Below, piece after piece: positions 622-58,987 of a stretch of DNA of 64,000 bases. Position 1 is the stretch's first letter; the number at the start of each line of letters is the position of its first letter. The DNA is from Thermotogaceae bacterium (lineage in GTDB: Bacteria; Thermotogota; Thermotogae; Thermotogales; Thermotogaceae): contig JALWTT010000015.1 of assembly GCA_027077795.1 (NCBI GenBank), positions 1 to 64,000 on the forward strand. Reading direction: 5' to 3'. A program made the translations under genes and the position numbers. The notes beneath the pieces are model-generated. The model saw only the letters and a program-made list of their open reading frames with translations. It did not search any database and was not told the DNA's origin.

Positions 622-1911
622 GTGGGTGAGATCTTGAGAAAATTCACACTTTTCATTTGGATTACCGTCTCCTTTCTAGGCTTTAGTTTTTTAACTACGA
701 TAAAAATACCATTCAGCGTAGATGATGGGGCCATCTACGATTCACGGGGTTTCATATACGCATTCTCTGGAAAATCAATGATGATCCTGGATGTATCCAA
801 CCCCTCACGGGTAGACCTCCGAACATTCAGCCTAAAGAAATTCTACGATGCCGGTGCTGTATGCGGTGACAAACTCTACATTTCCGCTGAAAGGTCGTTA
901 TTCGTATATGATGTGAGTAATCCGTTTCATCCGAAACTTTTGAAAGAGCTCGAGATGAAGGAAAAAATAGAAGTGTTGGCATGCGCAAAAGGTGTGGTTT
1001 ACGCTATGGGTGTGGATCACATATACGTGTTAAGAGAAAGCGAGGTGATAGGAAAGGTCCGATACTATGAAAATGTTACGAACAATTGGTGGGTCAATGG
1101 TAATTACCTGTTTGTTCAAAGGTATGGATGAGGCTTTGTAGTAATAGATGTCTCTGATAGATATTCGCCAAAAGTTGTCAGGGTGTTCAAAAGTTACGGA
1201 AATGCTATTGGACGCGGTAAATGGGTGTACTCTGCTAGTATGAGCGAGCTTCTCGTGATTGATGTGTCAAATCCAGTATCTCCAAAAACAGTCAATATTA
1301 TTGATATGCAAAAAGTGTGCGATGTGACATTTAGGAGGGGGAATGTCACATCGTATCTGGTTTTGAGAGGAGTTGAAGTCGTGGGTGATTACCTTGCTGT
1401 GGTTTACACATGGGATGGGGATTTTGTTTCATTGCTTAGCCTAAAGGATCCTTTAAACCCCAGATTGGTGAAAAAAGATAGGATAACAAAAAAGTGGGAA
1501 ATCACCGACTTCGTTTTGAGTGATGGGGAGAAATACCTTTACATCTTTCGATCTGGGAAAAAGCTTACGATATACAAGGTGGAGATCGAAGAGAGTGCTA
1601 CCGAGCCAAGATTCCCGGAATCACCACAGAGCGCTTTTGTGATTTTTGAAGGAGATAGTAGTGGATGGTTCAGAGTGATAGGCGATGTGAAGGTTTATGT
1701 GGATGGTGAGTTTGTTGGAAGGCTTCGAAAGGGACAGAGTGTGGAGGTTTCGGGAAAGATTGTCGAAATTTCCGTGAACCTCTCCGATGAAACCGCCCGG
1801 TATTTCTACTTCAACCTTCCGAAAGATAAATCCTGTTTAATAAGGATCCATGATGCGTCTAGTAGACTTCACAGGATTGTAGAGTTTGAGTGCAGGTTAT
1901 CAAGTTATTAA
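622..1911 (+). pseudogene. LVIVD-repeat surface protein interrupted by an in-frame TGA
   Basis: Frames 622-1131 and 1132-1911 are one continuous frame broken only by TGA at 1129-1131. Both sides carry the same repeat with the core DVSNP (ILDVSNPSRVDL, VYDVSNPFHPKL, VIDVSDRYSPKV, VIDVSNPVSPKT), known as the LVIVD repeat of bacterial beta-propellers. The N-terminus is a hydrophobic signal (FTLFIWITVSFLGFSFL), so the product would be exported. The end (about codons 350-390) looks PEGA-like (VKVYVDGEFVGRLRKG). The start is either GTG 622 or TTG 634. No Sec-insertion hairpin is evident after the TGA, so an inactivating mutation or base error is more likely than recoding. Confidence 0.7.
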
Positions 1912-1934
1912 TGTTTTATGTGGAGGTGAAGGGT

Positions 1935-3752
1935 ATGAAAAGGACATTTTTAGGATTTTTACTCGTTTTTACTGTACTTGCGATTTCAACGCCAACACTT
2001 GGCACAGGAACGGTGAATCCTGAAAAACTCATTTACGAGAGTTTTCTTTCCAAATTCAAAAACATTAAAGTGGATGAAAAAAGCAGACTAGCGTTTCGTA
2101 GCAATGTATCTGAGGAAGAAAAAAGAGCAATACTTCAAGTTTTGAGCGATCCATTGGGAGCAAAAGTCTATCTCAAAGGTAAATATATGGGAAAGACTCC
2201 AGTAACGATAAGTAGTGAATCTAAGGTAAAGGGAAAACTATTGGTGAAGATGAAGGAATCTCCTACTGACTACGCAACATCTGTGGTGATCCACGTGGGG
2301 GAGAAAAGACAAATAAAAGTTAAATACGCAAAGATAAGGTTAGAATCTAGGCCATTTGGAGCGGATCTTTATGTGAATGGAGAGAAATATGGCAAGTTGC
2401 CTCTTGAGTTGATGGTTTTAGTTGGCAAAAAGTTGAACTTGAAGATAGAGAAAGAAGGTTATGGGGTGGTAAAGGATGAGATTAGGATTTTGAAATATCG
2501 AAATCGCCTTATCTTGAGATCTTCCCTCGCCGGGAAGCTCAAGTGGAAGTTCAAGACTAGTGATCCTGTGGACTCGAGTCCGGCTATAGGGAAGGATGGA
2601 ACGATATATGTGAGCTCTCAGGATGGCAACATCTACGCTCTCAATCCGGATGGATCCCTGAAGTGGAAGACTAATATCGATGATTTTATCGAATCGAGTC
2701 CAGCTATAGGAGAGGATGGAACCATATACATTGGCTCGAGTGATGGCTACATATACGCGATCAATCCGGATGGAACCCTCAAGTGGAAGTTCAATATTGG
2801 TTATGGCTGGTTTAGGGTGAGGTCAAGTCCAGCGATAGGAAAAGATGGAACTATATACGTTACTGGATGGCATGAAAACACGTCTTCCATTGGATGTATC
2901 TGCGCTCTTAGAGTTGATGGAGCGTTGAAATGGCGATTCGACGATATCGGTCCCGTGAGTTCGAGTCCAGCAGTAGGAAAATATGGAACTATATATGTCG
3001 GATCGGCAGAAGCATATGAAAGTGAAGGGAAATTATATCCCCCATATCCAGTATCCGAGAAGGAAGAAGAGGAAATTAGTGAAATGATCAGAAAGATAGC
3101 GGCGATGTCCAATTCTCTCCACGCGTTGAATTCGAATGGAACACTTAAGTGGAGGTTTAAAACGGGTGGGTTCGTATGCTCAAGTCCAGCTATAGGGGAG
3201 GATGGAACCATATACATTGGCTCGAGTGATGGCTACATATACGCGATCAATCCAGATGGAACCCTCAAGTGGAAGTTTAAAACTGGTGGTGATGTATACT
3301 CAAGTCCAGCTGTGGGGGAAGATGGAACTGTATATGTGGGATCTCAGGATAGCAATATCTACGCTCTCAAGCCGGATGGATCCCTAAGGTGGAAGTTCAA
3401 AACAAACGATATGGTGGGTTCAAGTCCAGCTATAGGGGAGGATGGAACTATATACATTGGCTCAAGCGATGGTTACATATATGCGATCAATCCAGATGGA
3501 ACCCTCAAGTGGAAGTTTAAAACTGGTGGTGATGTATACTCAAGTCCGACGATAGGAGAGGACGGAACTGTATACGTTGGTTCAAGTGATGGATATATCT
3601 ACGCCTTATGGGGCGACAGCATGGGACTTGCGAATTCTTCATGGCCTAAGTTCCGCCACGATGCTAGAAACACTGGAACGGTTAAAGAGGTATCAAGAAA
3701 AGAGAAAAATACCATTTTCAAGAGAATGTACACCTTCAAAGTGACTTACTGA
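1935..3752 (+). CDS. Exported PEGA and PQQ-type beta-propeller protein
   Basis: ATG 1935 is chosen because GGAGGTGA lies just upstream; the 605-residue protein then opens with a clear signal peptide (MKRTFLGFLLVFTVLAIS). Two PEGA units follow (about residues 60-190; DPLGAKVYLKGKYMGKTP and RPFGADLYVNGEKYGKLP), then eight propeller blades (about 205-590) built on LKWKFKT, SSPAIGEDGTIY and GSSDGYIYAINPDG. The tail WPKFRHDARNTG is the usual end of such propellers. PEGA domains are thought to bind the envelope, so this is probably a cell-surface or periplasmic scaffold. PQQ-enzyme activity is not implied, because the cofactor and metal residues of quinoprotein dehydrogenases are not seen. Blade 4 has an insert of about 35 residues. 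Confidence 0.8.
   Translation: MKRTFLGFLLVFTVLAISTPTLGTGTVNPEKLIYESFLSKFKNIKVDEKSRLAFRSNVSEEEKRAILQVLSDPLGAKVYLKGKYMGKTPVTISSESKVKGKLLVKMKESPTDYATSVVIHVGEKRQIKVKYAKIRLESRPFGADLYVNGEKYGKLPLELMVLVGKKLNLKIEKEGYGVVKDEIRILKYRNRLILRSSLAGKLKWKFKTSDPVDSSPAIGKDGTIYVSSQDGNIYALNPDGSLKWKTNIDDFIESSPAIGEDGTIYIGSSDGYIYAINPDGTLKWKFNIGYGWFRVRSSPAIGKDGTIYVTGWHENTSSIGCICALRVDGALKWRFDDIGPVSSSPAVGKYGTIYVGSAEAYESEGKLYPPYPVSEKEEEEISEMIRKIAAMSNSLHALNSNGTLKWRFKTGGFVCSSPAIGEDGTIYIGSSDGYIYAINPDGTLKWKFKTGGDVYSSPAVGEDGTVYVGSQDSNIYALKPDGSLRWKFKTNDMVGSSPAIGEDGTIYIGSSDGYIYAINPDGTLKWKFKTGGDVYSSPTIGEDGTVYVGSSDGYIYALWGDSMGLANSSWPKFRHDARNTGTVKEVSRKEKNTIFKRMYTFKVTY
3181..3547 (+). repeat. 240-bp period duplication of two propeller blades
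   Basis: Positions 3181-3307 and 3421-3547 are nearly identical at a spacing of exactly 240 bp (two blades). A third near-identical stretch of about 90 bp lies at 2701-2790 in blade 2. Confidence 0.8.
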
Positions 3753-53829: not shown

Positions 53830-53862
53830 GCTGCTTTGTAGGACGTCGTAGGAGGGGTGAAG

Positions 53863-56800
53863 ATGGGCATGAGCAATTTCGAGGAAGTATTTTTCCAAGT
53901 TCTCTATGTTGTAGTAGCTCTATTCGCGCACAAAAGACTCACATATGAGTTCAGCGTCCCGAAATACGCGATATTTTCCATAGGTTTTTCCATACTCCTT
54001 TCCATAGCTATCATAAGAATGCTCAGGAAAAGCCACACCAAATTTGAACTAAATTTAGGACATCTTTTACTTTTGGGATTTGCTTTAACTTCTTTGATAT
54101 CGACTGTCAACGTTGCCCTGGATAGACCGTTTTATTTCTTCTATTCCATAGACATAGCACTTTATACACTTTTGAATGCGTTTGCTGCCGTTTATATAAG
54201 CAATTATTTCAAGGACAAAGGAAGGATGACAAGGTTTCTCTTGGTTATGATAGCAACAGCTGGTTTTATATCTATAGACGCGCTTTACAACTTCTACGCT
54301 GGGAGAGATTTCTTTCTGGGAAGTGTCGGTAGACCTTTGGACAGGGGTTCTATAAAAGCAACGGTTGGAAACGTCATATTTGTCGCGAACTACTTGGGAA
54401 TGGTCATTCCAACGACGATATATTTTCTCTTCTCATACGACTTTGGATTCAGATCTACAAAGGGTAGAAAGGTAAGTCTATTGAGAATCATAGGTTGGAA
54501 ATTGACAGCACTAGCTTCTCTAATTCTGATGGTTATCACCGTGATAGTCAGTCAAACGAGGTCCGAATACGGAGGAGTTTTCATCACGAATCTCTTGTTC
54601 TTCGTTCTCTACTTCTTATACGTGTTCAGGAAGAAAAAGGACGAATCCAAGGAAGAGCTGGAGAATTTGGATCCAAATCTCGCGAGCAAAGTCTTTGGGA
54701 TTCAAAAGGTTCTAGGAATTATCTCCGCTTTGGTAATCATAGCATTCGTGCTTCTTTACTCCATACCGTCACCTCTCACTGGCAGAGGAAGATTCTCGAT
54801 AGGTGGAAGAGTTGAGGCCATGTTATCAGCCGGCAGCTGGGATGAGAGAATTCTAGCATGGCTCTCTTCATACTATCAGTGGAAGGACCCGAAGTTCGAT
54901 TCGGATGATATAAAACGTGTTGAAAAGATATTCCCGGTTGATGATAAGGGAGCTTACGATGTCGCTCTAGCCATGAGGAGACTTTTTGGAAGGGGAATAG
55001 GAACTTATCAAATTTTGACAATAAACTACATGGGGGATATAGTTCAGGGTCACCCCAGGTTCATATGGGGATGGAACAACTTTAAGAGAACCCACAACGA
55101 TTACTTCCAAATCCTGGGAGAAACAGGGGTAGTTGGGGAGTTCTTCATCTTAGCGCTCCTTTTGTATCTTATAATTTATCTCTTTAGAACTTTAAGGAAG
55201 CTCGAAGATAAAGATGATACAGTACTTTTAATAGCACTTTCGATGGGATTTGCAGATTTCGTCATACAATCATTTTTCTCGTTTCCTGGCCATCTTCTTC
55301 CAAACACTTTGGGTGCGATATTCTTAGCCTCCAGCGCTCTTTCAAGACAGTTCAACAAAGATGGGTGGATGAGTTTTGAGATTTCCCTGAAAAGGGGGAG
55401 CTTCTCCACCTTAGCCGTAATTCTCATAGCTCTCTCGTTTACTTCAACATATCTCAGGTGGAATTACTTCATCTCTGAAGTCAACTTCAAAGCGGGGAAC
55501 ACCAAGTATCTGACTCTCATGAAGGTTAGGAATTTAAGAGGACAGATCCTCGATGAGGAAAGAAAGATAGGAAGCAGGAAAGACTTGATGAAGGTTTTGG
55601 ACGGAAAGGTAGAGAACGTCTCAAAGAGTCTAATAGGTTCCAAGAAAGCCGAACAGATATGGCGTGAATTTCCATCACTTGATCCGGCTCAGAAGTTCTC
55701 ACTGGTGGAAAGGGAGATTTACGAGGAGTCCAAAAATTATTTAGTGAGATGTTTGAGTATGAATCATGATTACGGTAAAGCGTATTTCTATCTAGCAGCT
55801 CTCTCAGCGTGGTACCATAGGTTGGGAGATTTAAGAGCCACCCTGAAAAGTGAGCAGGATTTCGAGAGATTCCTTTCACAAGATTTCGACGAATTCCAGA
55901 GGTTTATACATCCCAGTAAAAAGAGAACAGATCTTTTAAATGTTTGGAAGATGCTGAATGACAAGTACAAGGACTCCCTTAAGAACTCCTTTATGAATTA
56001 TCAGATCATACTGGATTCGATTTCGCTTTACAAGACATCACTCATGGTGTTCAACGAGAGAAATACCTACAAGGCTCTTGCCCAGAGGTTTGCCATTCTA
56101 GACAGGTATTCCAAGAGTTTGATCAGATACATATCATCTTCGAATTTGAAGGATAAGAATAAAATAGTGAGCTATCTGTTTGAAAAGGCTGGAGAGTACT
56201 ATTCAGACTTCACCAAATACGCGAGAAAGATTGTTCACAATATACCAGGTGCTTGGAACAGATTCCCGGACTGGAAGAACTACGATATAAGGGTTGCAAT
56301 GTCTGGACAGGATATATACAGGACTATGGCTAGGATAAACGCAACCTTAAAAGTTCCCATAGATCCCCAGTATCAGGATCTTTTGAAGTGGCTTGCAGAG
56401 AAAGAGGTATGGGCAACTGGGAAAATGAGGGATGTCGGTGTTTGGGGAGTACCAGATATGGTTTTTGATTACGTGAGGGCAGTTCCATATGCCTATCTAA
56501 CCATAGGTGATGCGACGAACACGGCGCTTTGGATGAGCTACGCACTTGATCTGTATTCCCCACAGCTTGATGAGATGAAGGATGACTTCAAGAAATACGC
56601 CGTGAGAGACGAAGATGTGGAATATGTGCTGAACAGATTTCATTCCCTGCTCACGAGAAATCTAGAGCCATGGCTTGAGAAGAGAGTATTGGAGTCTTTA
56701 AAAGCTTTGAAGATATCGGTTAGGAAGGACGCCGCTAAAAAACTGGAGGATGTCGTGAAGGAAGCTGCAGCGAGTGCCACGTTGCTTGGGGATTCTTATT

Positions 56801-57645
56801 TGAAGGGTGAAGCAGATCTGAGATCAGTTGAAAAACCTATTTTGAGTTTATCAAGTAGTATACCATCCATTGAAGGTGTTTTCATGGATTTCAGCGCTAT
56901 GGGGAAGCTCTCCTCTGCTATGGGGGATATCACCTCTGATTTCAAGGATATCTTGAAGAGAATGAAATCCCAGTCGGATCTCGTGGAAAATTTCATCAGA
57001 GATTATTTTTCTTTACCTGTTAAGGATGCATGGGTAAATGCTGAGGAAAACAGGATGCTCAGGACATTCTGGAATGATTTTGTCGTTCTCCGAGTGGCGG
57101 AGGCACTCAGAGGAGTCTACCCACACATGGATGGTAAAGATATATTGAATAGAGCTAGAAGTCTAGTCGACTCCATCAAATCAAAGGGGCTGAAGGAGAC
57201 GGAGAATAACTTGGGGGAAAACCTCAAAAAAGTTGCTGAATATGCCAACAACCTTTTGAAACTCGATCTCGGGTTCAAGAGAAGGTACAATTACGAAAGC
57301 CTTATGAGAGAGGCTATCCTCAGGAGACTCCAGGAGGTGATTTACAGGAAAATTCCCGATGAGAGTTACAGGTACCCAGCGGAGTCCTTGGCAGCCGATG
57401 TTTTGAAAAATCTTGGTATCAACATGAGTGTTTCAAATTTGGCTGCTTCCCTCATGGATACAAGAATGAAGGTGTACGAGAGATATGCCAGGTTTTATGG
57501 GAAGATATACGCTCTGACAGAGGAAGCTAAGGTTATAGAGAGCTCGATCAAGGGAAAGGTCTCCGACGACGTGATGAGTAAATTGGAGACTTCAATCGAG
57601 AGATCTCTTGACTCTCTGAAAAAATTCCGAAAATCAGAAGAGTGA
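53863..57645 (+). CDS. Very large O-antigen-ligase (Wzy_C) family membrane protein
   Basis: ATG 53863 is five bases from GGAGGGG. The 1260-residue protein has about ten membrane helices in its first 530 residues. A Wzy_C-type loop lies near 385-425: GRGIGTYQI, GHPRFIWGWNNFKRTHNDYF and LGETGVVGEFF, with the conserved Asn/His and Gly. It may join surface glycans or polymers. A soluble region of about 730 residues follows (from about 530), helical and charged, with no recognised domain; it is much longer than in usual ligases (400-750 residues). Its last 98 bases overlap lnt antisense. Confidence 0.8.
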   Translation: MGMSNFEEVFFQVLYVVVALFAHKRLTYEFSVPKYAIFSIGFSILLSIAIIRMLRKSHTKFELNLGHLLLLGFALTSLISTVNVALDRPFYFFYSIDIALYTLLNAFAAVYISNYFKDKGRMTRFLLVMIATAGFISIDALYNFYAGRDFFLGSVGRPLDRGSIKATVGNVIFVANYLGMVIPTTIYFLFSYDFGFRSTKGRKVSLLRIIGWKLTALASLILMVITVIVSQTRSEYGGVFITNLLFFVLYFLYVFRKKKDESKEELENLDPNLASKVFGIQKVLGIISALVIIAFVLLYSIPSPLTGRGRFSIGGRVEAMLSAGSWDERILAWLSSYYQWKDPKFDSDDIKRVEKIFPVDDKGAYDVALAMRRLFGRGIGTYQILTINYMGDIVQGHPRFIWGWNNFKRTHNDYFQILGETGVVGEFFILALLLYLIIYLFRTLRKLEDKDDTVLLIALSMGFADFVIQSFFSFPGHLLPNTLGAIFLASSALSRQFNKDGWMSFEISLKRGSFSTLAVILIALSFTSTYLRWNYFISEVNFKAGNTKYLTLMKVRNLRGQILDEERKIGSRKDLMKVLDGKVENVSKSLIGSKKAEQIWREFPSLDPAQKFSLVEREIYEESKNYLVRCLSMNHDYGKAYFYLAALSAWYHRLGDLRATLKSEQDFERFLSQDFDEFQRFIHPSKKRTDLLNVWKMLNDKYKDSLKNSFMNYQIILDSISLYKTSLMVFNERNTYKALAQRFAILDRYSKSLIRYISSSNLKDKNKIVSYLFEKAGEYYSDFTKYARKIVHNIPGAWNRFPDWKNYDIRVAMSGQDIYRTMARINATLKVPIDPQYQDLLKWLAEKEVWATGKMRDVGVWGVPDMVFDYVRAVPYAYLTIGDATNTALWMSYALDLYSPQLDEMKDDFKKYAVRDEDVEYVLNRFHSLLTRNLEPWLEKRVLESLKALKISVRKDAAKKLEDVVKEAAASATLLGDSYLKGEADLRSVEKPILSLSSSIPSIEGVFMDFSAMGKLSSAMGDITSDFKDILKRMKSQSDLVENFIRDYFSLPVKDAWVNAEENRMLRTFWNDFVVLRVAEALRGVYPHMDGKDILNRARSLVDSIKSKGLKETENNLGENLKKVAEYANNLLKLDLGFKRRYNYESLMREAILRRLQEVIYRKIPDESYRYPAESLAADVLKNLGINMSVSNLAASLMDTRMKVYERYARFYGKIYALTEEAKVIESSIKGKVSDDVMSKLETSIERSLDSLKKFRKSEE

Positions 57646-58987
57646 TGGGGACCACCACAAAGTAGTTTTTAATTTTTGGATACAGAGTTGGGTGGGGTTT
57701 CCCCACGTTGATTTTTCTTACAGCTGCCCTTCCCACTTTTAAAACGGCTCTTATTCTACCCCATGGATCTATGGCCCCAGTTATACCCTTGTTAGCCACC
57801 TGGATGACCCATCTCCCGGTTTCAGCGGCTCTGAACACATCTTTTGCGAAGTGGTTCCACAACGCCACCCTATATCTGAACCACACATCATTGGTTACAA
57901 CTACAATAAAATCAGCTTTTCTGGAGTAGATGGCTTCGCTATCATCAAAATAACTTTCAAAACATATTAAGACACCTATTTGCTTTCCGTTGTAATCCAA
58001 CACATGATAACCATTTCCAGGTGTGTAGTATGCAAATCCCCTGAGGAATCCCAGAACTCCGAATATCTTTGGATATGGTAGAAATTCCACAAAGGGAAAC
58101 AGCTTAACTTTATCGTACCTTTGAGAACTCCCGTCGTTTATCAGGAAAGCGGAATTGTACCTGTTTGTTCCGCTGGAATAAAGTGCACCTAGAAGCACGG
58201 GATAATCGATAGAAGGTGGTTTCTTCAAAAAGGATACGATGTAAGCTTCTGGAGTTATAAGAAGCCCGTTGACTTTCGGGAGACCTGCCAACCGGGTTTT
58301 CAAAGACTGGCCGTATTTCGCCTCTGGTTCTTCGTTGGTTTGATACAGGTAAACAGTTACTGAATTGGGTTCATAAGGGGTTCTGATTCCATCTGGAAGA
58401 AGATGCCACGGGATGTATATCAGCAAAATTAAGATCAAAATACAGCAGTAATTTCTTCTTCTGATGAATTTCCATAGGATAACATTCACCGCTATAATTA
58501 TCATAGAGATTCCCAGCTCGCCAACGAGGGAGCTCAAAGCAACGATGTGAGGCTCGTTGAACACAGCGTCCGATAATCTGGCCCCTGTGAAGCCCATTTG
58601 TCCCGATTGCCTTGCAATTTCCGTGAGAGCGTAGAGTGCTGGGTACACAAGATAGGGATTCTTCTTCGAAAGCAGGGCACCGAAGAATCCGAACGGAAAG
58701 TAAAAGGCGCCTTGATATGCTATGAGTAGGAGGAAAACCAGAAACCCTTGGAACGGTGTAAACCCGGCAAACTTTGGAAAGTTTCTGGTTATGGTGTCCA
58801 GTATCCAGAAATGCGATATTGCGAACGCCGTCGAAAAGAATAAGAAGCCCTTTAAACCACCAGAGATTGGTTTGGAGGATGCTAGGGTTTCAAATAGAGG
58901 TATCATCGAGAACCAGACTAAGATGTGAATGGGCATCCCTGGCATGGAAAGGGCTAGCAATACTCCAGCGAGAACTGCGAGAATCAC
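57548..58987 (-). CDS. lnt: Apolipoprotein N-acyltransferase
   Basis: The 479-residue protein has about six N-terminal helices (ILAVLAGVLLALSMPGMP at the start) and a C-terminal nitrilase domain: Glu in GLLITPEAY, Lys in YDKVKLFPFVEFLP, and Cys in GVLICFESYF. It adds the third acyl chain to lipoproteins in the membrane. GTG 58987 overlaps the preceding gene's stop by four bases. The tail (SSRRRRPFP) is encoded opposite the ligase-like gene end. Confidence 0.92.
   Translation of the reverse strand: MILAVLAGVLLALSMPGMPIHILVWFSMIPLFETLASSKPISGGLKGFLFFSTAFAISHFWILDTITRNFPKFAGFTPFQGFLVFLLLIAYQGAFYFPFGFFGALLSKKNPYLVYPALYALTEIARQSGQMGFTGARLSDAVFNEPHIVALSSLVGELGISMIIIAVNVILWKFIRRRNYCCILILILLIYIPWHLLPDGIRTPYEPNSVTVYLYQTNEEPEAKYGQSLKTRLAGLPKVNGLLITPEAYIVSFLKKPPSIDYPVLLGALYSSGTNRYNSAFLINDGSSQRYDKVKLFPFVEFLPYPKIFGVLGFLRGFAYYTPGNGYHVLDYNGKQIGVLICFESYFDDSEAIYSRKADFIVVVTNDVWFRYRVALWNHFAKDVFRAAETGRWVIQVANKGITGAIDPWGRIRAVLKVGRAAVRKINVGKPHPTLYPKIKNYFVVVPITLLIFGIFSESQEISRLKSPIYSSRRRRPFP

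Follow-up and report, generated by a model that had tools for sequence, protein, structure and literature searches.

O-antigen-ligase-type enzymes normally decorate lipid A, and the Wzy_C family also covers polymerases. The closest layouts found are those of the predicted S-layer O-oligosaccharyltransferase WsfB and of PglL, both of which, in the extract of the source consulted, combine Wzy_C with a C-terminal tetratricopeptide repeat (TPR) motif that mediates protein contacts (PMC2943079). A Wzy_C enzyme with a periplasmic helical-repeat arm is a layout known already. The gene described here lies on the forward strand of a 64,000-nucleotide stretch of DNA (the window) from Thermotogaceae bacterium (contig JALWTT010000015.1 of assembly GCA_027077795.1), whose genome is 1.7 Mb in size, and it encodes a predicted protein of this general kind, with an extension unusual in its length and conservation. 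What is new is the near phylum-wide retention of a Wzy_C ligase in the absence of lipid A. No paper on this protein was among the matches listed in a literature search. A word search of PMC3387000, on toga proteins, found no glycosylation, O-antigen or ligase. A ligase that outlives its textbook substrate across a phylum points to an envelope glycoconjugate of the Thermotogota of which we found no description.

A Wzy_C protein retained across the Thermotogota

Matches to Wzy_C (PF04932) above the curated cut-off were present in 96 of 103 Thermotogota genomes, with one to three matches per genome in most of those examined. A profile of the core of the C-terminal extension (profile A2, residues 601–905) matched 99 of the 103 at E ≤ 0.001, including 81 of the 82 genomes of good quality, some of the 99 matches being short or weak (4.8e-4 in G059; partial in G007, G049 and G082). 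LpxC was found in none of the 103 genomes by a search that was positive in 4 of 14 controls, and the Thermotogae are listed, in the part of PMC5007114 consulted, among phyla apparently without coding capacity for lipopolysaccharide (LPS). Because LpxC is missing throughout, lipid A should not be what the enzyme acts on; as judged from these searches, the lipid A-core acceptor that defines WaaL appears to be lacking, which leaves a protein, another lipid or the wall as candidates.

Our preferred hypothesis, held tentatively and at somewhat less than an even chance, is that the protein is an inner-membrane, periplasm-facing Wzy_C (WaaL/PglL) glycan transferase that transfers an undecaprenyl-linked glycan en bloc to an acceptor docked by its solenoid, most likely a protein; the en bloc step taken by itself, with a polyprenyl carrier as donor, is probable. 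A WecA/TagO-type enzyme, encoded by the next gene upstream in many relatives, would start the glycan on undecaprenyl phosphate; after completion and flipping, the glycan would occupy the WaaL-like membrane domain, in which transfer would rely on His411 together with Arg233 and Arg329, and the periplasmic TPR-like solenoid would dock the acceptor. The computed support consists of the predicted fold, the catalytic-type residues, phylum-wide conservation, gene linkage and the absence of LpxC, whereas the topology, the activity, the role of the solenoid and a protein acceptor, as in PglL and WsfB-type O-oligosaccharyltransferases, we infer.

The reading frame itself is as follows.

53863–57645, forward strand: the whole gene, 1260 amino acids (1262 from a GTG at 53857), with homologs in 57 of 61 relatives

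This single intact frame, which starts at GTG 53857 or ATG 53863 and ends with the stop at 57645, contains no internal stop. It is no chance frame, because a protein search found a relative in 57 of the 61 genomes and because the closest complete homolog occurs in the same-genus genome G002 (74% identity over residues 1–1258). The first-pass annotation, made from the letters alone, had placed the start at 53863 and the length at about 1260 residues, and both agree with these results.

The four genomes in which the core profile found no match at the above threshold are G023, G044, G053 and G080. G023, an order-level relative that is 99% complete, is the only good-quality genome among them, and its sole match to the WecA-type model is a remote one (9.6e-24). 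Cluster 28, a gene that neighbours the ligase in Fervidobacteriaceae relatives, was likewise missing from these four genomes in a search that had no positive control; loss as a block and an assembly gap are both possible, and the shared absence is not counted as independent evidence. In a tree of 39 members, the family tracks the genome families, with ten groups and nine changes, the minimum, as counted by a quick method; the two copies of family f11 fail to group together, and second copies are present in several lineages. On these sequence comparisons, we take the family to be vertically inherited and ancestral to the Thermotogota. A scan with two peptide patterns, the sole basis on which spread beyond the phylum is judged, returned 127 stretches (40 relatives, 38 loci), all from Thermotogota taxa, and distant relatives may exist elsewhere. 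Wzy_C proteins of another type, whose long C-terminal part differs from this one, were also seen (L129:898-3387, 829 amino acids, in G057 of family f4; L134:1-2232, at least 744 amino acids, in G065 of family f5), and other genomes hold frames of similar length.

Membrane half and C-terminal arm

The features of the membrane half, all on the forward strand, are given one per line; A1 denotes the 39-row family alignment and TM a transmembrane segment.

53863–55464, forward strand: membrane half, residues 1–534, with a WaaL-like fold predicted for residues 1–500 followed by an extra, thirteenth TM helix at about 511–534
54559–54561, forward strand: Arg233, conserved catalytic-type Arg after TM7, Arg in 39 of 39 A1 rows; equivalence to WaaL R215/PglL R224 by order only
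54757–55107, forward strand: predicted large periplasmic catalytic loop, residues 299–415, from the model and hand topology
54847–54849, forward strand: Arg329, aligned by HMM to residue 298 of 9rmk, Arg in 39 of 39 rows
54988–54996, forward strand: Gly376-x-Gly378, aligned to 316 and 318 of 9rmk, in 39 of 39 rows
55093–55095, forward strand: His411 of the RTHNDY motif, aligned to 349 of 9rmk, His in 39 of 39 rows

Both a profile match and the periplasmic-loop residues Arg, Arg and His, which are conserved, place the protein, as far as sequence goes, in the Wzy_C superfamily. PF04932 was matched by all 39 aligned members at E ≤ 0.1 (best 1.5e-20), the window copy itself scoring E 1.4e-5 and 25.4 bits against a curated cut-off of 31.7, and so falling below it. 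An AlphaFold2 model of residues 1–1048 (38 sequences, mean pLDDT 86.6, pTM 0.79) was compared with known structures, and residues 1–500 matched WaaL (7tpg_B) with Z 18.2 and rmsd 5.5 over 367 aligned residues, the next row reaching Z 11.3. The membrane half is accordingly predicted to have the WaaL fold, and its description as O-antigen-ligase-like in the first-pass annotation stands. PglL was missing from the structural-comparison rows, an absence that excludes nothing. When the A1 profile was searched against the PDB, the best match was 9rmk, an oligosaccharyltransferase (E 3e-5), followed by WaaL (0.0029).

Thirteen TM segments were assigned by hand from the model helices and charges; on this assignment the short loops hold 15 Lys/Arg in 62 residues inside versus 8 in 46 outside, a modest contrast. 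TM13 sits beyond the end of the WaaL match, and because this extra segment follows the WaaL-like part, this topology predicts that the C-terminal extension should lie in the periplasm, on the same side as the catalytic loop.

Arg233, Arg316, Arg329, His411 and Asn412 are invariant in the 39 A1 rows. In a HMMER alignment to 9rmk, numbered by counting residues along its rows, the aligned positions 298, 316/318 and 349 coincide with the numbers of conserved PglL residues in the excerpt of PMC3643930, which pairs Neisseria PglL R298, H349 and R224 with WaaL R288, H338 and R215, respectively, and counts G316, G318, H400, E404 and P406 among the residues kept in PglL and not in WaaL. Equivalents of PglL Arg298, Gly316/Gly318 and His349 thus appear, by alignment, to be present.

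The features of the extension are the following.

55465–56586, forward strand: residues 535–908, conserved extension core, a TPR-like alpha-solenoid predicted to be periplasmic (models, structural comparison, profile A2)
56050–56070, forward strand: FNERNTY motif, residues 730–736; F730 in 35 of 39 rows, E732 in 35 of 39
56245–56274, forward strand: PGAWNRFPDW motif, residues 795–804 (family form PGxWNRFPDW); W798 in 39 of 39 A1 rows and 36 of 38 rows of a second alignment, A4
56443–56457, forward strand: WGVPD motif, residues 861–865; P864 in 38 of 39 rows, W861 in 30 of 39
56587–57642, forward strand: residues 909–1260, variable helical tail, in which about 1050–1200 has 79–95% gaps in the 39-row alignment

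Region 530–1260 comprises 731 residues, nearly all helical in the predictions, so the long helical region noted at first pass is borne out. A second model (residues 505–1260, mean pLDDT 84.9, pTM 0.78) is weak near residues 581–595 and 1135–1166, the latter stretch falling in the tail. Structural matches to about 533–908 are mostly TPR proteins and TPR-like solenoids, among them a SKI-complex chain (Z 11.1), mTOR (10.5) and MamA (9.8), together with a consensus TPR (Z 8.9, rmsd 2.2 over 101 residues); the rows also hold many 14-3-3 proteins, Hir3 and designed helical repeats, and the tool warns that for helical repeats a Z under about 13 may reflect merely a common arrangement. At the level of sequence, matches were weak: consensus TPR against profile A2 at E 0.006; TPR_12 in 2 of 39 members (best E 0.015; 15.9 bits against a cut-off of 30.1 in a relative); TPR_8 and TPR_1 in one of 39 each; Wzy_C_2 (PF11846), the family that covers the C-terminal part of such polymerases, in 2 of 39 (best E 4.6e-5); and the model of the chaperone SicA, a TPR protein, in 3 of 39 (best 0.0022). 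The per-member Pfam counts refer to the matches listed, which cover 25 of 42 families. Because the sequence-level TPR matches are all weak, residues 535–908 are termed TPR-like and not TPR, and are predicted from the models to form a divergent solenoid.

The first-pass annotation had called the region uncharacterized, which holds as far as curated families go, as no Pfam or NCBIfam match in residues 530–1260 lies above its cut-off; its further statement that no known fold is present does not agree with the structural neighbours and the weak TPR profile matches. As a TPR-type extension, the region is largely recognizable by fold class and weakly by sequence. Its description as rich in lysine and glutamate holds only in part, the two making up 16.4% of residues 530–1260 and reaching 28.3% only in the last 60. 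Nor is the extension a peculiarity of this protein, since the 39 A1 members carry 390–729 residues past position 535 (median 535), with Gly638 invariant in all 39 rows. The tail beyond 909 ranges from 24 to 355 residues among members, and the longest forms, with an insertion near 1050–1200, are those of the window's genus, to which this insertion looks specific in the alignment.

Gene neighbourhood and candidate acceptors

Directly upstream of the ligase gene, on the same strand and at a spacing of −53 to +41 nt, a WecA/MraY-type transferase gene is found in 23 of 61 loci, a set in which second copies and loci truncated at the end of a contig are counted. All 23 belong to families f1–f3, and the PF00953 domain was confirmed in one of the 23 upstream genes and in the copy of the host genome. 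This linkage makes a part in surface-glycan assembly, as had been suggested at first pass, likely. A sugar cluster of the host genome (L143:3169-11096, within C6:472001-492000), in which four genes were scanned, encodes a PF02397 starter, a flippase (PF01943), an EpsG-family protein and a PF04464 CDP-glycerol glycerophosphotransferase-like protein; the last is an enzyme of the teichoic-acid type, here in a phylum whose cells bear an outer sheath. All 11 genomes that lack a match to the WecA-type model at E ≤ 1e-20 have PF02397, but so do most others (83 of 103 overall), and this shows nothing about a replacement of the WecA-type starter. On the other side the ligase gene overlaps its neighbour tail to tail by 98 nt (57548–57645).

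57548–58987, reverse strand: lnt (apolipoprotein N-acyltransferase), convergent, with PF20154 and PF00795 matches

In three loci of family f4 (L071, L073 and L079), lnt adjoins the ligase gene on the same strand. Elsewhere in the window, 1890–3752 encodes a protein with recurring DGTIYVGS-type stretches that is beta-propeller-like by eye.

A protein acceptor is ranked first because the WsfB and PglL layout, as described in the extract of PMC2943079, is the closest found. A number of observations weigh against this preferred hypothesis. The window's genome carries its WecA-type gene on another contig (L142:9137-10051), and the WecA-type model (A6) has no match at E ≤ 1e-20 in 11 of 103 genomes. 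Foldseek gave no match at E ≤ 0.001 for either model, and the 38-row profile A4, which shares genomes with A1, ranked a designed helical bundle first, ahead of 9rmk (E 0.0066) and WaaL (0.07); Arg316 is replaced by Lys in 2 of the 38 A4 rows. Where PglL has H400 and E404 the window copy has Q469 and S473, only P475 being kept as the equivalent of P406, and for this copy no match to PglL_A (PF15864) was listed at E ≤ 10, so that by sequence it appears to lack the PglL_A signature. The full HxxxExP stretch, present in 13 of 38 A4 rows and 6 of 39 A1 rows, speaks for the hypothesis, but it also occurs in the L129 paralog, which makes it a weak signature. Matches of 7 of 39 members to the NCBIfam model PEP_O_lig_1 (putative O-glycosylation ligase; best 3.3e-16) speak for it too, but the window copy has no match at E ≤ 0.01, and no Pfam TPR match of the window copy passes a curated cut-off. 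No paper on Thermotogota glycoproteins was among the matches listed.

A lipid acceptor is kept close behind because Thermotoga maritima, according to the extract of PMC10353723, has Lpt orthologs and glycolipids of its own, and the same source suggests glycolipids as Lpt cargo in diderms that lack LPS. A WaaL-like enzyme would then transfer the undecaprenyl-linked glycan to a lipid other than lipid A, for export by an LptF/LptG-type permease, and the solenoid would bind the lipid head group or an Lpt partner; we regard this as possible, if on the unlikely side. The WaaL fold of the membrane half is consistent with it, as is LptF_LptG (PF03739) in 100 of 103 genomes despite the lack of LpxC, mostly with one match each and with frames over 1000 amino acids in most of the matches listed. 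In G038 (L054:6939-18633), a WecA-type gene, the ligase gene and, 4.3 kb on, an LptF/LptG-type gene (1114-amino-acid frame) all run in one direction. The retained permease and this gene run fit a lipid acceptor at least as well as a protein and therefore count against our preference. Yet an Lpt gene was near the ligase in just one of 20 shared-contig loci compared, lying elsewhere on the contig in the other 19; the WaaL match stops where the extension starts; and no lipid-anchor gene was identified. The available part of PMC8871954 reports the Thermotogae to be without nearly all the outer-membrane genes studied, Lpt included, except bamA, with which our LptF/LptG counts disagree. More specifically, an LPS-like glycoconjugate might be built on a non-lipid-A lipid by a WecA-type start, a ligase with a periplasmic solenoid and an elongated LptF/LptG-type exporter, near phylum-wide and in a single gene run in G038; this we consider rather unlikely. 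At two loci (L153:3168-6707 of host contig C6 and L154:3043-6267), the permease gene runs on for about 700–830 further residues, with weak LptD_N matches just past the permease part (E 0.33 and 0.02, respectively). By eye the remainder resembles an OstA/LptD beta-barrel, and an LptFG-LptD fusion in a phylum without LpxC is possible.

A Wzy-like polymerase or chain-elongation enzyme for an exopolysaccharide or envelope polymer is unlikely. One of the 39 members does match TIGR04370, a model for polymerases of oligosaccharide repeat units (E 7.5e-4), but the host sugar cluster has a polymerase-type gene, that of the EpsG family, and Wzy polymerases are variable, unlike a copy conserved across the phylum.

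That the enzyme attaches a wall glycopolymer to peptidoglycan is improbable: the CDP-glycerol glycerophosphotransferase-like gene of the host cluster would fit, but LytR-CpsA-Psr, the known enzyme type for this task in the portion of PMC7831098 consulted, is present in 89 of 103 genomes, the window's included. The ten genomes of family f5 have the ligase yet no LytR-CpsA-Psr match; absence of LytR-CpsA-Psr as an argument for a wall ligase was nevertheless rejected, given its presence in those 89. An SLH domain is present in OmpA1, the anchor of the toga. No evidence was found for the suggestion made at first pass that the extension may hold the toga or a sheath polymer, and it is very improbable, for although the family is phylum-wide, as the toga is, prediction places the anchor of the protein in the inner membrane, and G023, which lacks a family match, keeps four SLH-domain matches in frames of 480–1026 amino acids (a comparison at domain level only).

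With few Wzy_C copies per genome and no STT3 in 102 of 103 genomes (one has it), the destination of the glycan, whether proteins, lipids or the wall, becomes a genetically tractable question.

Comparison with known systems

The predicted protein resembles WaaL (7tpg) in the fold of residues 1–500 and in the conserved Arg, Arg and His, and it differs in the extra TM13 and some 725 further residues, as well as in belonging to a phylum without LpxC. The structure 9rmk is named only as an oligosaccharyltransferase and fits the PglL residue numbers given in the extract of PMC3643930. Compared at sequence level, PglL as represented by 9rmk is the best PDB match of the A1 profile and has residues 298, 316/318 and 349 aligned, and a C-terminal TPR motif is reported for PglL in the part of PMC2943079 used here; the window protein, in contrast, has no equivalents of H400 and E404, and its extension is longer than the whole of 9rmk (610 amino acids). 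WsfB of Paenibacillus alvei, compared by its description in the same extract, is closest in layout, whereas in the Thermotogota the extension stays below every TPR cut-off and carries motifs of its own. With TPR and TPR-like solenoids such as MamA, consensus TPR, the SKI complex and LGN, the extension shares, in the models, a helical-repeat superhelix, a likeness that at Z under about 13 may be a common arrangement and that, unlike theirs, comes without a curated TPR match.

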